Below, piece by piece: positions 34,453 to 51,425 of a stretch of 64,000 nucleotides of DNA. Below the pieces are notes generated by a model, which saw only the letters and a list, made by a program, of their open reading frames with translations, ran no database searches and was not told where the DNA came from. Position 1 is the stretch's first letter. Every line of letters begins with the position of its first letter. Location: assembly GCF_040256745.1 (NCBI RefSeq), contig NZ_CP138335.1:1240001-1304000 (forward strand). The letters run 5' to 3'. This stretch comes from Scrofimicrobium sp. R131. Lineage in GTDB: Bacteria; Actinomycetota; Actinomycetes; Actinomycetales; Actinomycetaceae. The position numbers and the translations under genes were made by a program.

Positions 34453-34524
34453 TGGGCGATACTGGGATCGAACCAGTGACCTCTTCCGTGTGAAGGAAGC
34501 GCGCTACCCCTGCGCCAATCGCCC
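34453..34524 (-). tRNA. tRNA-Val (anticodon CAC)
   Basis: 72 bases. Acceptor stem GGGCGAT/ATCGCCC with discriminator A, T-loop GGTTCGATCCC, anticodon stem CTTCC/GGAAG with loop TTCACAC. No CCA is encoded. It differs from tRNA-Val(GAC) at 34755 in three bases only. Confidence 0.95.
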
Positions 34525-34525
34525 G

Positions 34526-34596
34526 AGGTGGGTACGGGATTCGAACCCGTGTATACGGCTTTGCAGGCCGCTGCCTCACCACTCGGCCAACCCACC
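34526..34596 (-). tRNA. tRNA-Cys (anticodon GCA)
   Basis: 71 bases. Acceptor stem GGTGGGT/ACCCACC with discriminator T (U, the CysRS identity element), anticodon stem GCGGC/GCCGT with loop CTGCAAA, T-arm GGGTTCGAATCCC. No CCA is encoded. It lies one base from tRNA-Val(CAC). Confidence 0.95.
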
Positions 34597-34634
34597 TATG
34601 CCAGCTAGATTGGTTGCCCAACTCCTCGGAGCTG

Positions 34635-34707
34635 AGCGGATGACGGGATTCGAACCCGCGACCCTCACCTTGGCAAGGTGATGCTCTACCAACTGAGCCA
34701 CATCCGC
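34635..34707 (-). tRNA. tRNA-Gly (anticodon GCC), copy 2
   Basis: 73 bases. Acceptor GCGGATG/CATCCGC with discriminator T, anticodon stem TCACC/GGTGA with loop TTGCCAA. Identical over its whole length to the copy at 34828-34900. Confidence 0.95.
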
Positions 34708-34754
34708 TAGTCTGGGGAAGGTTTCCAACCGGTTACCCGATTAGGCTCCATCCG

Positions 34755-34826
34755 TGGGCGATACTGGGATCGAACCAGTGACCTCTTCCGTGTCAGGGAA
34801 GCGCGCTACCGCTGCGCCAATCGCCC
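34755..34826 (-). tRNA. tRNA-Val (anticodon GAC)
   Basis: 72 bases. Same acceptor, T and D arms as the CAC isoacceptor at 34453; the anticodon loop is CTGACAC. No CCA is encoded. One base separates it from tRNA-Gly copy 1. Confidence 0.95.
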
Positions 34827-34827
34827 G

Positions 34828-34900
34828 AGCGGATGACGGGATTCGAACCCGCGACCCTCACCTTGGCAAGGTGATGCTCTACCAACTGAGCCACATCCGC
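34828..34900 (-). tRNA. tRNA-Gly (anticodon GCC), copy 1
   Basis: 73 bases, first gene of the tRNA operon in the direction of transcription. Identical to the copy at 34635-34707. Confidence 0.95.
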
Positions 34901-44972: not shown

Positions 44973-45749
44973 TCAAATCACCTGACACATCACCTGGGTC
45001 AGGGCCGCGGCCACCTGCCGTGGATGCTCGACGCAGGTCAGGTGGCGCGAGTTCTTGATCACCTGGAAGCTGCCGGCCGCACCCGGGATTTGGTGGGCCA
45101 ACTCTTCGGCTTTCCCGGGGCTCATCCCCGCGTCCTCGTCCCCGGTGAGGATCAGGGTTGGGACCTGGATCTGCGACAGGTCCGCCCGCAGGTCGGTGTT
45201 CCCGATCAGCTCACAGCAGTACGCATAGCCCTCGACCGGACAGGCAAGGAATGTTTCGCGCGTCCGCCGGTAGCGGGACTCGCCCTTTCCCGCTCTGAAT
45301 TCCGGGGTGAACCACCGATCCATCGTCGCGTCGACCAGGGAGGACATTCCTTCGGCCCGAACCAGTTCCGCGCGGTCAAACCAGGGCTCCGACGGAAGCA
45401 GCGCCGCTCCCGAATCGAGCATGGCCAACGAGAGGACCCGCTCGGGAGCCATCTCGGCCACCGCGAGGGAGGCAATCGCGCCGAGGGAGATGCCGGCCAC
45501 GTGAAACCGGCCAATCCCCGCCTCGTCCAGCTGAGACAGGAGTACCTCCACCACGGTCTCCATTCGAGCCGGGCCCGAGGGTATTTCCGAAGCTCCGTGA
45601 CCGGGCAGGTTCCACCGGACAATATGCCAGGAATCGGCCAGGTCGGCCACCACCTCGTCCCAGATCCGAACGTCTGAACCGAGCGAATGGGCCAACACCA
45701 GCGTGGGAGCCCCGGCCGGCCCGTCTTGCTGCAACTCGAATGCGGTCAT
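44973..45749 (-). CDS. Alpha/beta-fold hydrolase (3-oxoadipate enol-lactonase-like)
   Basis: 258 residues. Oxyanion 'LAHSLGSD', nucleophile elbow 'AGISLGAIA' (GxSxG complete), Asp in 'LTGDEDAGMS', His in 'NSRHLTCVEHP'. This resembles the PcaD/MhpC-type hydrolases, but no aromatic-catabolism genes are near and the substrate is unknown. It follows the P-type ATPase by 3 bases and is thus probably the last gene of the riboswitch-controlled operon. Confidence 0.85.
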   Translation of the reverse strand: MTAFELQQDGPAGAPTLVLAHSLGSDVRIWDEVVADLADSWHIVRWNLPGHGASEIPSGPARMETVVEVLLSQLDEAGIGRFHVAGISLGAIASLAVAEMAPERVLSLAMLDSGAALLPSEPWFDRAELVRAEGMSSLVDATMDRWFTPEFRAGKGESRYRRTRETFLACPVEGYAYCCELIGNTDLRADLSQIQVPTLILTGDEDAGMSPGKAEELAHQIPGAAGSFQVIKNSRHLTCVEHPRQVAAALTQVMCQVI

Positions 45750-45752
45750 CCG

Positions 45753-48122
45753 CTAGCTCCCCTCGTGTCGAAACCGCGTCGTGTAGCGGTAACACACTTC
45801 CATCAAAGCACTAATTGCCAGGCCGACGCCACCAATTAGCGCCCACTGCTGGGGGTCGGGCCACTGCAGGGCGAAGAACTCCCTGGTCCAGGGGATGAGC
45901 ACCCCCAGCAGGGCGCCGGCCGCCATCACGCAGATCAGCACCAGGCGCCACAGGTTGAACGGGCGCGCGGTGATCCCGAGCAGCCACAGGGCCCCGAGGA
46001 TCAGCGTCAGGGTCGCTCCCGTCTGGCCGATCTCCGTATGCTCGCCCAGTAGGAGGTATACGATCAGCGCGCCCGTGCCCATCAGCAGACCGGATGGCAC
46101 CGCCAACCAGAGGGTTCGGCGAAGGAAGCCGGGGTGATACCGACGGTGGCTGGGAGCCAACGCCAGGAAGAAGGCAGGGGTCCCAATCGTCAGGGCCCCA
46201 ATAAAGGTCAGTTGCCGCGGCAGGAACGGGTAAACCCAGCCGCAGACCGAAACGATCACCGCCAGCATCACGGCGTAGGTGGTCTTGGACAGGAACAGGG
46301 AGGAGACTCGCTCCATATTCGCGATAATCCGTCGCCCCTCGGCCACCACACCCGGCAGGACTGAGAACTCGCTCTTCATCAGCACGAGGCGGGACACCGC
46401 TTTTGTGGCCGGCGCGCCATTGCCCATGGCAATTCCCAGGTCCGCCTCTTTCAGCGCCAGGGCGTCGTTGACTCCGTCCCCGGTCATGGCGACCGTGTGG
46501 CCCCCACGCTGCAGGGACCGGACCAGCGCTCGTTTCTGCTCCGGGGTGACCCGGCCAAAGACGTCCACCTCGGCGGTGGCCCGGTCGAACTCGGGAGTGT
46601 CGATTTCGGGGAGAGTGCGCGCGTCCACCACCTGGAGCGTTCGACCGTCCCCGCCCAGGTCTAGCCGGTCGGCAATGGCCCCGACCGTTCCGGGGGCATC
46701 GCCGGAAATCACGCGGACCCGGACTCCTTGCGACCGGAAGTATTCCAGGGTCTCGGCCGCATCGGGTCGGATGTCTTCAGACAGTACCGCGATCAGCTGG
46801 GGTGAAAGGTCCTCGGGCAGGGGTTGATTCTCGGCAATCGGGCCGCCGGCCCGGGACAGGCATAGGGTTCGCTGGCCCCGGGACGATGATTCCGCCACCA
46901 GCTGGCGGGCGGCTTCCGCCGCGTCTCCTCGGGCGTTGGCCAGCAGGATTTCCGGCGCTCCGAACACCCAGCTGCCATTCGCGCCGCTCAAAGCCGACCA
47001 TTTGCGCGTCGAGTTGAACGGAACCTCGGTCAGTTCCGTCGGCAGGTCCGTCGCCGACCAGGCTTGGCTCCGCAGCAGTTCCTGCACCGCCGTGGCGGAA
47101 GCGTTCGTTTCGTCGGAGGTCAGGCGGCCAAGCGCCCCGGCCAGATCGGCTTCCGAGGCGGCCCCCGGCAGAACCGTCAGTTCCTGCCCCCGAATCCCGC
47201 CGGTGGTGAGGGTCCCGGTCTTGTCCAGGCACAGCTCGTCGACGCGGGCCAGAATCTCCACCGCCGGAAGCTCCTGGACCAGCACCCCCCGACGCGACAG
47301 GGTGGCCGCCGCCAGTCCAAAGTTCATCGAGGTCAGCAGGACCAGCCCCTGGGGGATCATGCCCACCACCCCGGCAATCGCCAGGATGACGGCCCCGCGC
47401 CAGTTGCCGGCGTCCGCCCGAGTCTGGGACCAGACCAGGAGGACCACCACCACCGGAAGCACCACCATGATCCACTTGAGGACCCGGTCGATTGCCCGTT
47501 GAATCTCCGAGGTCACGACGGAGTACTTTCGCGCTTCAGCGGTGATCTTTTGGGCCCAGGAGTCGGCCCCCACCTGGCGCACCCACATTCGGCCCGAACC
47601 GGCCACTACCGCTGTCCCCGAGAGGAGCTGGTCGTCAACCTGCTTTTTTACCGGCAGCGACTCACCGGTCAGAATTGACTCGTCCACCTCCAGGCCCCGA
47701 GTGGATAGCACCGTCCCGTCGGCCGGAATTTGGTCGCCGAGGCGCAGCTCGACCAGGTCGTCCACCACCAGGTCGTCGTTGTTGACCGTCTGTACCTTCC
47801 CGGCGCGCAGCACCTGGGAGGTGGGGGCGGCCAGGACCGCCACCGAGTCCAGCACCCGTTTGGATCTGAGCTCAGAGCAGACGCCAATCGCCGCATTGAT
47901 CACCATCACGAGCGCAAAGACCGAGTCGCGCCAGTCCCCCATCGCCAGCACCACCACCATGGCGGTGGTGAGGATGGCGTTGAACGGCGTGAAGATGTTC
48001 GACCGAAGAATCTGGCTGACGGGTCTGGAGGTGGTGCGCGGGACCCGGTTGGTCTGACCCGCTTGGACCCGCTCAGCCACCGCCTCGTCCGGAAGTCCAT
48101 CCGGATAGGGAGGAAAGCTCAT
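45753..48122 (-). CDS. Cation-transporting P-type ATPase (CtpE-like)
   Basis: 789 residues, ATG at 48122 with AGGA upstream. Complete P-type core: actuator TGES in 'ESILTGESLPV', phosphorylation site 'DKTGTLTTG' (Asp about 298), and hinge 'MTGDGVNDALALKEADLG'. About ten membrane helices, with helix 4 reading 'GVVGMIPQGLVLLTS', similar to mycobacterial CtpE (a Ca2+ transporter) and related short P-type ATPases. There is no N-terminal heavy-metal domain. It follows terC by 24 bases, downstream of a Mn2+ riboswitch, which makes Mn2+ or Ca2+ export a reasonable inference. Confidence 0.87.
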   Translation of the reverse strand: MSFPPYPDGLPDEAVAERVQAGQTNRVPRTTSRPVSQILRSNIFTPFNAILTTAMVVVLAMGDWRDSVFALVMVINAAIGVCSELRSKRVLDSVAVLAAPTSQVLRAGKVQTVNNDDLVVDDLVELRLGDQIPADGTVLSTRGLEVDESILTGESLPVKKQVDDQLLSGTAVVAGSGRMWVRQVGADSWAQKITAEARKYSVVTSEIQRAIDRVLKWIMVVLPVVVVLLVWSQTRADAGNWRGAVILAIAGVVGMIPQGLVLLTSMNFGLAAATLSRRGVLVQELPAVEILARVDELCLDKTGTLTTGGIRGQELTVLPGAASEADLAGALGRLTSDETNASATAVQELLRSQAWSATDLPTELTEVPFNSTRKWSALSGANGSWVFGAPEILLANARGDAAEAARQLVAESSSRGQRTLCLSRAGGPIAENQPLPEDLSPQLIAVLSEDIRPDAAETLEYFRSQGVRVRVISGDAPGTVGAIADRLDLGGDGRTLQVVDARTLPEIDTPEFDRATAEVDVFGRVTPEQKRALVRSLQRGGHTVAMTGDGVNDALALKEADLGIAMGNGAPATKAVSRLVLMKSEFSVLPGVVAEGRRIIANMERVSSLFLSKTTYAVMLAVIVSVCGWVYPFLPRQLTFIGALTIGTPAFFLALAPSHRRYHPGFLRRTLWLAVPSGLLMGTGALIVYLLLGEHTEIGQTGATLTLILGALWLLGITARPFNLWRLVLICVMAAGALLGVLIPWTREFFALQWPDPQQWALIGGVGLAISALMEVCYRYTTRFRHEGS

Positions 48123-48146
48123 GGGGACCATCCTAGCTAGTGGAGG

Positions 48147-49148
48147 CTACTGCTCCACCTGCGGCGGGCGGGCCCGGTCCATTCTGCTCTTAATCAGGGA
48201 GGCCACCACGGTCAGCACAATCACGCCGCCAATGACGGACAGCGACATGCCGATCCCAATGTCGGGCACGTGGAAGCCCTCTCCGCCGTTCAGGAACGGC
48301 AGATTGTTCTCGTGCATCGCGTGCAGAATCAGCTTGACGCCAATGAAACCCAAAATGATCGCCAGCCCGTAGTGCAGGTAGACCAGGCGCGACAGCAACC
48401 CGTCGATCAGGAAGTAGAGCTGGCGCAAGCCGAGCAGGGCCATCGCGTTGGCGGCGAACACGATGTAGGGCTCCTGCGTGAGACCGAAGATGGCGGGAAT
48501 CGAGTCGAAGGCAAACATCAGGTCGGCCGTCCCGAGCGCCAGGACGCAGAGCAGCAGCGGGGTCAGGTAGGTCTTGCCGTGCTGGCGAGCCAGGAACCGC
48601 TGGCCGACAAAACCGTCGGTCACCGGGAACATCTTCCGGACAAAGATGGTGAACCGGTTCTCCCGGTACTCCCCGTCATCGCTTTCGCCCTCAACTCCCT
48701 GGCGAGCCTGCATGATGGCCGTCCAAATCAGCCAAGCCCCGAACAGGTAGAAGATGGCCGAGAACCGTTCAATAATGGCGGCACCCACCAGAATGAAGAC
48801 CAGGCGCAGGACCAACGCGATGATGATGCCGGACAGCAGTGCCTTCTGCTGGTACTCCCGCGGAACGCGGAAGGACTGCATGATCAGCACGAAGACGAAG
48901 AGGTTGTCGACTGAGAGGGCTTTCTCAGTCAGGTAGCCGGCGAAGTACTCGCCCGCGTAAACCGAGCCGAACTCCCACCAGGTCAGCACGCCGAAGAGGA
49001 TCGCCAGGCCGATGTATCCCACCGACCACCAGGCGGCTTCCTTCATGGTGGGAGCGTGGGGAGTCCGGACGTGCCCGACAATGTCAAAGGTGATGAGGAC
49101 GAGAACGATCGCGCCCAAGATGAGCCATGACCAAACGCTGACTTCCAT
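48147..49148 (-). CDS. TerC-family integral membrane protein (probable Mn2+ exporter)
   Basis: 333 residues from the ATG at 49148; a longer frame would run into the riboswitch. Nine or so hydrophobic helices and the TerC signature acids in 'ALSVDNLFVFVLIM' and 'TADLMFAFDSIPAIFGLT'. In other bacteria TerC proteins (Alx, MeeF/MeeY) export manganese or metallate exoenzymes. The upstream yybP-ykoY riboswitch strongly supports a manganese role here. Confidence 0.92.
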   Translation of the reverse strand: MEVSVWSWLILGAIVLVLITFDIVGHVRTPHAPTMKEAAWWSVGYIGLAILFGVLTWWEFGSVYAGEYFAGYLTEKALSVDNLFVFVLIMQSFRVPREYQQKALLSGIIIALVLRLVFILVGAAIIERFSAIFYLFGAWLIWTAIMQARQGVEGESDDGEYRENRFTIFVRKMFPVTDGFVGQRFLARQHGKTYLTPLLLCVLALGTADLMFAFDSIPAIFGLTQEPYIVFAANAMALLGLRQLYFLIDGLLSRLVYLHYGLAIILGFIGVKLILHAMHENNLPFLNGGEGFHVPDIGIGMSLSVIGGVIVLTVVASLIKSRMDRARPPQVEQ

Positions 49149-49184
49149 CCGATTCCATTCCGTTCGTAGGGTTGACCAACCAGT

Positions 49185-49284
49185 TGAGGTCTTATCCCAC
49201 CTGGAACGGAACCAGGTGTTGATGCCGAGCCGGTTGTTCCCGAGCCGTGTTGACGACATCAACTTAGCGAGATTACTCCCCCCG
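49185..49284 (-). ncRNA. yybP-ykoY manganese riboswitch
   Basis: On the minus strand the leader begins with GGGGAGUAAUCUCGCU, carries GUCGUCAACACGG, and ends with GGGAUAAGACCU. These are the three conserved blocks of the yybP-ykoY family in the right order (loop L1, loop L3, 3' closing segment). GUUGAUG/CAUCAAC (7 bp) forms an internal arm. The predicted transcription start lies right at the first block. It ends about 37 bases before the terC ATG, and control is probably at translation, since no terminator is visible between aptamer and gene. Confidence 0.82.
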
Positions 49285-49289
49285 GGGAC

Positions 49290-49318
49290 AGTCTAGGGGG
49301 TGACGGAGGGCCTAACAA
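49290..49318 (-). promoter_or_regulatory. Promoter of the terC operon
   Basis: TTGTTA (-35, 49313-49318), a 17-base spacer, and TAGACT (-10, 49290-49295) on the minus strand. The predicted start is around 49283, at the 5' edge of the riboswitch. Confidence 0.65.
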
Positions 49319-49352
49319 CCGGGAACCGGCGAATGCGGACTATCCCACCCGA

Positions 49353-51425
<2,073 letters not shown>

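Follow-up and report, generated by a model that had tools for sequence, protein, structure and literature searches.

Introduction

YoaB of Lactococcus lactis is a P-type ATPase, and both YoaB and MgtA of Streptococcus pneumoniae are taken as pumps of the LMCA1/PMR1 type, with Glu in segment M4 and Asn and Asp in M6. We know of no operon in which either gene stands together with terC. The yoaB gene is described as carrying a yybP-ykoY riboswitch, and MgtA (formerly CaxP) as a P-type ATPase under a Mn riboswitch (PMC11434433, PMC9331361), in an organism for which a separate CtpE is reported (PMC11371651). According to the description of the L. lactis aptamer, its L3 reads UCA41A and the invariable adenosine contacts Mn2+ via N7 (PMC6754395). 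Regarding TerC, Mn efflux activity is reported for the TerC proteins of Bacillus subtilis, where meeY has a Mn riboswitch (PMC10550928), and the terC gene of Corynebacterium glutamicum (cg2157) is described with a yybP-ykoY leader from Rfam and a mapped transcript start (PMC3890552). CtpE of Mycobacterium smegmatis (791 aa, family 23) has been presented as a Ca2+ uptake pump (PMC5615198), and in a review CtpE and related pumps are proposed to form a family, P6, that has PEGL in M4 and Ile for the M6 Asp, the missing Asp being suggested as the reason for the reversed Ca2+ pump (PMC10654040). CtpE is the only characterised P6 member, and it imports Ca2+. Here we analyse a stretch of 64,000 nucleotides from Scrofimicrobium sp. 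R131 (contig NZ_CP138335.1, positions 1,240,001 to 1,304,000; hereafter the window), in which a putative Mn2+ riboswitch, terC, a P-type ATPase gene and an alpha/beta hydrolase gene follow one another on the minus strand.

We read this locus as an operon for manganese homeostasis, in which Mn2+ would induce TerC together with a pump for Mn2+ (or Mn and Ca), and we give this reading a probability of roughly 0.55. It is built on what was computed, namely the homology and covariation of the aptamer, the gene order and its conservation, the family of the pump and a Gln in its M4. The regulatory RNA and the terC membrane protein are of known kinds, and the pump is a variant. Our literature searches, with most subscription literature outside their reach, found nothing that joins CtpE and a riboswitch beyond a base editing paper, and nothing that joins a P-type ATPase, yybP-ykoY, terC and an operon beyond a Bacillus review.

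Results

A predicted yybP-ykoY-class aptamer ahead of terC

On the minus strand, the terC leader carries GGGGAGTA at 49281-49274, CGTCA at 49255-49251 and AAGACC at 49193-49188, so the three yybP-ykoY blocks that the original prediction had claimed are all present. The same prediction proposed a check with the Rfam model RF00080, and this check did not come out: over the window nothing reached the gathering score of 45 bits, which is the detection threshold, no match up to an expectation value (E) of 10 was obtained on 48900-49500, and the search of the whole genome gave no match at the terC leader and a sole weak match elsewhere. Yet RF00080 was also silent on 7/7 relatives with obvious aptamers, and we hence consider the fault to be that of the model and not of the sequence. 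The silence of these relatives, together with the match of a model built without the genus (see below), rules out that the leader is no riboswitch because RF00080 does not find it.

We detected TerC in 57 of 59 related genomes, and GGGGAGTA, CGTCA and (A/G)AGACC occur in this order in 34 of 41 terC loci (our own and 40 others). We aligned 31 of these leaders (alignment A1) as training rows for a covariance model, R1, which matches 35 of the 41 loci, 31 of them being its training rows; the three motif-bearing leaders left out of A1 (L039, L042 and L059) were all recovered. A second covariance model, R2, was built from 25 leaders outside our genus (alignment A4, which omitted L048 as well, and whose poorly aligned P3 columns lower the R2 scores). 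R2 gave a single match in the window up to E 10, at 49178-49291 on the minus strand, with 36.5 bits and an E of 6.7e-8, and it also matches the leaders of four congeners.

GGGGAGTA, CGTCA and AGACCT are invariant in 31/31 aligned leaders. On 35 leaders (alignment A2), 92.4% of the cells were paired, two-sided changes were seen in 16 of 20 pairs, and the covariation score was 0.615, compared with 0.228 for shuffled and 0.073-0.159 for slid alignments, figures that lean in favour of the structure since A2 was fitted to it. P1, P2 and P3 covary in A2, with a hairpin stacked on L3, and RNAalifold on the unfitted A1 also returned P1, P2 and the inner hairpin. The match of R2 and this covariation bear out the claim that an aptamer belonging to the Mn2+ riboswitch class precedes terC. 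At E 1e-4 the aptamer was found in 135 of 151 Actinomycetaceae genomes, and the leader is thus family-wide. In 20 stretches ahead of ATPases that have no terC in front of them, R1 gave no match, and the only match of R2 in such stretches was a weak one (L075, E 0.074), which we take as chance.

Across the class Actinomycetes, RF00080 matched 4 of 118 genomes, all under the cut-off (0/118 pass). Its matches in L245-L247, at 29.6-32.4 bits and below the threshold, lie at the same places as R1 matches, and the fourth matched place, L248, has an R1 match too; the aptamer of Actinomyces israelii (L115) was missed by RF00080. Our leader has in common with the RF00080 class (meeY/ykoY, yoaB, cg2157) the L1 text GGGGAGUA, UCA(A/U) in L3 with its invariable adenosine, AGACC, the four-helix layout and the position before terC. 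Its L3 text CGUCA(A/U) fits UCA41A of L. lactis; it differs from the class in scoring below the detection of the present RF00080 model. According to these comparisons of sequence, the assignment of the terC leader to the yybP-ykoY/Mn2+ riboswitch class is well supported, and the RNA very probably senses manganese.

The ATPase is assigned to the CtpE kind

TerC scored 367.7 bits with TIGR03718, above the curated cut-off of 246.4. General P-type models matched the ATPase, whose scores with the curated models of named subfamilies, those for Ca2+ and Mg2+ included, stayed far below the cut-offs. Its best solved relative is LMCA1 of Listeria, with 198 bits for the single sequence and 318 bits for the profile. 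In the alignment of both proteins, PQGL in M4 stands opposite PEAL, and the Gly and Ile of M6 (LTIG) stand opposite Asn and Asp, with Ile facing the Asp. The ATPase hence lacks the M4 Glu and M6 Asn/Asp ligands of LMCA1/PMR1-type pumps and shares with P6 the absence of the M6 Asp, but it carries PQGL where the P6 description, as given in the review, has PEGL (PMC10654040). Because of this exchange we file it as a P6 variant and not as a plain member.

In a quick tree of 95 sequences (LG+G4), the ATPase falls among actinobacterial P6-type pumps; M. tuberculosis CtpE and a P2 outgroup were not among its rows, and it omitted eight rows (one of them a duplicate gene, L217), rows of 600 aa or less and all but ten of the rows set down as Firmicutes. 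The P6 pumps of the Actinomycetaceae form two main sets, one with PEGL, placed with the CtpE-type pumps of Rhodococcus, Nocardia and Gordonia, and one with PQGL; G071 contributes a further divergent PEGL pair. Among the named neighbours in the tree, which speak for the family Actinomycetaceae, are A. israelii (L115) and Actinotignum schaalii (L146); the pump of the latter is nearly identical to that of genome G021. A structure model of the ATPase (predicted local distance difference test, 81.6), when compared with the Protein Data Bank, ties LMCA1, SPCA1 and Pma1 at Z 32.8-33.1, and therefore confirms the P-type ATPase fold only, without naming a substrate.

The likeness to CtpE (M. smegmatis; Rv0908 in M. 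tuberculosis) lies in the length (792 vs 791 aa), the tree position and the Ile for the M6 Asp, whereas PQGL replaces the PEGL/VPEGL of M4, the gene is tied to terC and the aptamer, and CtpE is known for Ca2+ uptake. From its alignment and its place in the tree, we assign the ATPase with CtpE to the proposed P6 family. The parallel that had been drawn with lactococcal and streptococcal pumps holds in so far as, like those of MgtA and YoaB, this ATPase gene stands behind the same riboswitch class, but not for the type of pump, which is CtpE/P6 and not the canonical one with M4 Glu and M6 Asn/Asp. Neither is the description of the locus as having two exporters implied by family membership, since the characterised CtpE/P6 pump is reported to take up Ca2+.

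Linkage to terC and the residue in M4

At E 1e-150 or better, a CtpE/P6-type ATPase was found in 92 of the 151 family genomes, and its position was compared with that of the aptamers found at E 1e-4. In a count with coordinates copied by hand and two pieces of G001 entered as one ATPase, an aptamer precedes 37 of 93 ATPases within 6 kb and on their own strand, in six genera; hence the pairing of terC and the ATPase is not unusual in this family. One genome (G145, locus L238) has the full order and is not among the 92.

Gln was present in M4 in 36 of 138 ATPase rows (one gene twice), and 31 of these 36 adjoin terC, in two cases (L225 and L226) with about 3.8 kb between pump and terC; coordinates were used to judge short stretches in this count, and the terC linkage of L113 and L114 was assigned likewise. 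Every one of the 31 pumps read beside terC has PQGL, and terC was not seen next to any of the 102 rows that have another M4 residue. Gln at M4 also arose elsewhere without terC: the five remaining rows come from Rothia nasimurium (L137), two Coriobacteriia (Collinsella intestinalis, L174, and L180) and G069 (twice), and no aptamer was detected near the L137, L174 and L180 pumps by RF00080 or R1. The G069 gene (L217/L234), a PQGL ATPase with an in-frame TAA and no terC nearby, is possibly a decaying copy.

Position 261 is Gln in 24/24 linked pumps and Glu in 25/25 CtpE-type and 5/5 sister pumps, and it is the sole position at the 85% level that parts the linked pumps from the CtpE-type and from the whole sister group; positions 620, 641 and 717 distinguish the linked pumps from CtpE but from only some rows of the sister group. 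The tree requires two changes for terC linkage and three for Gln. Since within the family this amounts to a single evolutionary event, we regard the association of linkage and Gln as suggestive, not replicated. Nearly every genome holds a single P6 pump, of the CtpE-type or of the PQGL-type (only G071 gave two, both PEGL), and it looks like the CtpE-type was replaced by the PQGL-type across the family, or the converse.

Other arrangements were also recorded. The ATPase gene stands just upstream of the aptamer-terC unit in three genera (L065/L113 in G016, L050/L114 in G032, and L227-L231). Besides, tandem terC copies lie between aptamer and ATPase in L045 (G014) and in A. israelii (L115), the latter being, among 80 named pumps, the only case of the order aptamer-terC-terC-ATPase, with PQGL.

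Gene order and the hydrolase

The gap between terC and the ATPase gene is 15 nt if the latter starts at ATG 48131 and 24 nt, as originally predicted, if it starts at ATG 48122. The hydrolase start follows the ATPase stop by 3 nt, in agreement with the spacing claimed, although the gene (44973-45749) lies outside the range 45753-49318 to which the operon had been assigned. The tight order terC-ATPase-hydrolase is thus confirmed, and the last part of the ATPase gene holds GAGGGGAGC, a plausible ribosome site for the hydrolase. A start of terC at TTG 49262 was dropped because it falls within the aptamer, ATG 49148 being the best start.

The hydrolase scored 221.7 bits with TIGR02427, under the curated cut-off of 255.85, and 7/7 aligned hydrolases retain the nucleophile, the Asp and the His, which makes it a predicted PcaD-like protein with an intact catalytic site. 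It shares with PcaD the sequence family, the triad and the best solved match (2xua); unlike PcaD, it stays below the cut-off and belongs to a genome in which the pcaH (protocatechuate dioxygenase beta) and pcaC families gave no match at E 0.001. These missing matches place it outside the usual PcaD pathway and, with the score, rule out a function as PcaD (3-oxoadipate enol-lactonase). In 5/5 genomes of the genus with terC, the hydrolase gene lies no more than ~170 nt behind that of the ATPase and in the same orientation, while the sixth (G004, 85% complete) has neither terC nor hydrolase. Its position as third gene is genus-specific: among nine loci compared, it is not directly behind the ATPase in any of the four from outside the genus. 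In G027 a homologue lies ~1 kb onward, behind an opposite-strand gene, and in G026 (L042) a PcaD-PcaC fusion-like homologue, a PcaB-like gene and IclR-like regulators (named by reading) stand beside aptamer-terC, these pca-like genes being a possible source of the hydrolase. With low confidence, we would see in it a genus-specific passenger or an accessory esterase/lactonase that goes back to a PcaD-like ancestor.

Promoter and expression platform

The TAGACT box with TTGTTA 17 nt upstream would make the RNA begin at the first P1 strand. A TANNNT box ending 8-18 nt before GGGGAGTA was found in 32 of 34 leaders, ours included, and in 15% of shuffles, in line with the predicted promoter whose start coincides with the first aptamer block; a stricter sigma-70 scan found no promoter at the terC leader. 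In most relatives the P1 3' strand CCUCCGG is followed by the complementary CCGGAGG, which is the Shine-Dalgarno (folds of 12 leaders), and the modelled folds suggest that these leaders are mostly translational ON switches in which the P1 3' strand pairs with the Shine-Dalgarno.

A strong Shine-Dalgarno for terC is absent in our leader. Directly ahead of the terC ATG, 13 consecutive pairs join the P4 arm (49215-49203) with 49161-49149, a duplex of -27.3 kcal/mol that 0/200 shuffles equalled, and this hairpin is the minimum free energy fold of the leader. The platform here would hence be a P4-arm/start-region hairpin, whereas that of L. lactis is a terminator and that of the relatives a P1/Shine-Dalgarno hairpin.

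Locus layout

Table 1. Features of the terC locus, in coordinates of the window
Feature	Position	Strand	Details
Promoter	49290..49318	-	-35 TTGTTA 49318-49313, 17-nt spacer, -10 TAGACT 49295-49290; expected start ~49284-49282
Mn2+ riboswitch-type aptamer (predicted), P1-P4, L1 GGGGAGTA, L3 CGTCA, AAGACC	49178..49291	-	R2 model without own genus, and covariation
L3 CGTCA	49251..49255	-	A at 49251 matches the invariable adenosine described as contacting Mn2+, A41 of L. lactis (PMC6754395)
Predicted OFF hairpin	49149..49215	-	49215-49203 (P4 arm) with 49161-49149, 13 bp; AAGACC also captured
terC, TerC/Alx family membrane protein, 333 aa	48147..49148	-	TIGR03718, PF03741
P-type ATPase, CtpE/P6 kind, 792 aa	45753..48131	-	Alternative start 48122; motifs DKTGT, TGES, GDGVND present
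Gln261 codon, M4 motif P-Q-G-L	47349..47351	-	Glu in CtpE relatives and sister group; aligned to the Glu of LMCA1 PEAL
PcaD-like alpha/beta hydrolase, 258 aa	44973..45749	-	Ser-Asp-His triad kept; TIGR02427 below cut-off; closest solved chain 2xua

The run from promoter to hydrolase is preceded on the minus strand by a gene which, from a reading of its protein, we take to be uvrB, and at its other end the hydrolase gene converges on a YciI-family gene, with 5 bases between them. A plasmid search with the locus gave no match. Elsewhere in the window, at 34453-34900 on the minus strand, there are five consecutive tRNA genes, two of them identical in Rfam score (74.1 bits) and sequence.

Discussion

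Under the operon reading, the mRNA would start from the promoter at the first aptamer strand. At low Mn2+, a hairpin made of aptamer strands would hide the terC start region, while at high Mn2+ the metal would dock L1 on L3 co-transcriptionally, so that the aptamer retains its strands and translation of terC can proceed. The terC mRNA would also serve for expression of the ATPase and hydrolase genes, which are packed closely behind it. TerC would export Mn2+ or deliver it to secreted proteins, and the CtpE/P6-type pump, with Gln for the M4 Glu, would most likely move Mn2+ (or Mn2+/Ca2+) outward. In this scheme, Mn2+ binding, switching, the single mRNA and the substrate and direction of the pump are what we infer. 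Regarding the pump alone, we propose tentatively that a P6 clade of the Actinomycetaceae may have turned into a Mn2+ exporter under a Mn2+ riboswitch, with a site that lacks the usual M4/M6 carboxylates.

Several observations weigh against this reading, and we take them together with the explanations that they favour. One could argue that the ATPase takes up Ca2+ as CtpE does: high Mn2+ would displace Ca2+ or perturb the envelope, TerC would export Mn2+ and the pump would restore Ca2+. Such a role agrees with the Ca2+ uptake described for M. smegmatis CtpE (PMC5615198), with the absence of the M6 Asp both in P6, as proposed (PMC10654040), and in our ATPase, and with the rescue by Ca2+ reported for a Mn-sensitive pneumococcal mntE mutant (PMC11434433). 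Genomes carrying one P6 type or the other, in a single copy, are also what one would expect if CtpE had been replaced, which would point to a Ca2+ role, and a site with Gln in M4 and no M6 Asp might bind divalent ions weakly. However, the PEGL Glu, to which the published accounts tie Ca2+, is missing from the linked clade, expression of CtpE is described for Ca2+ deficiency and from an operon of its own (PMC5615198, PMC10654040), which is a different control, and none of the PEGL pumps read was seen beside terC, so we hold a Ca2+ uptake pump to be rather unlikely.

It is still less probable that the ATPase and the hydrolase are bystanders, with an aptamer that regulates terC only and downstream genes that have their own signals or are merely co-transcribed. 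The gaps between terC and the ATPase are short in the compared loci, the order recurs in 37 genomes and the same M4 residue occurs in all terC-adjacent pumps read, which argues against bystanders. Bystanders are nevertheless favoured by the 10 of 93 ATPases (10 genomes, three genera) that stand ahead of the aptamer by 44-124 nt, and hence not behind it, and by the hydrolase not being directly after the ATPase outside the genus (4 of nine loci compared). Another 46 of 93 ATPases are unlinked by the aptamer-distance count (three of which, in G101, G130 and G162, loci L235-L237, adjoin terC, with no aptamer found at E 1e-4), and these, like the 10, weigh against the operon reading.

Finally, a leader decayed in this species and no longer switching, as its short P1, its very stable occluding hairpin, its missing Shine-Dalgarno (weak, or not GGAGG, in G003; GGAGG kept in three congeners) and an OFF fold that, at -58.7 kcal/mol by nearest-neighbour energies, is 21 kcal/mol more stable than the core fold of the aptamer (-37.3 kcal/mol) could indicate, is very improbable, since every invariant aptamer position is retained and a new complementarity beyond 200/200 shuffles suggests a rebuilt platform. 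With such a difference in stability, any switch in the operon that we propose would need to act kinetically, during transcription. The 13-bp pairing was seen in this species only, the four congeners giving no duplex better than shuffles, and this also weighs against the operon reading.

RF00080 overlooks Mn2+-type riboswitches throughout an entire family, and this set of related leaders would present two different translational platforms on one aptamer. A natural P6 clade behind a putative Mn2+ sensor, together with TerC and with an M4 ligand unlike that of its sister group, offers a direct test of site selectivity. If Mn2+ export by this clade is true, it would give a second function, in the opposite direction, to a family known only as a Ca2+ importer.

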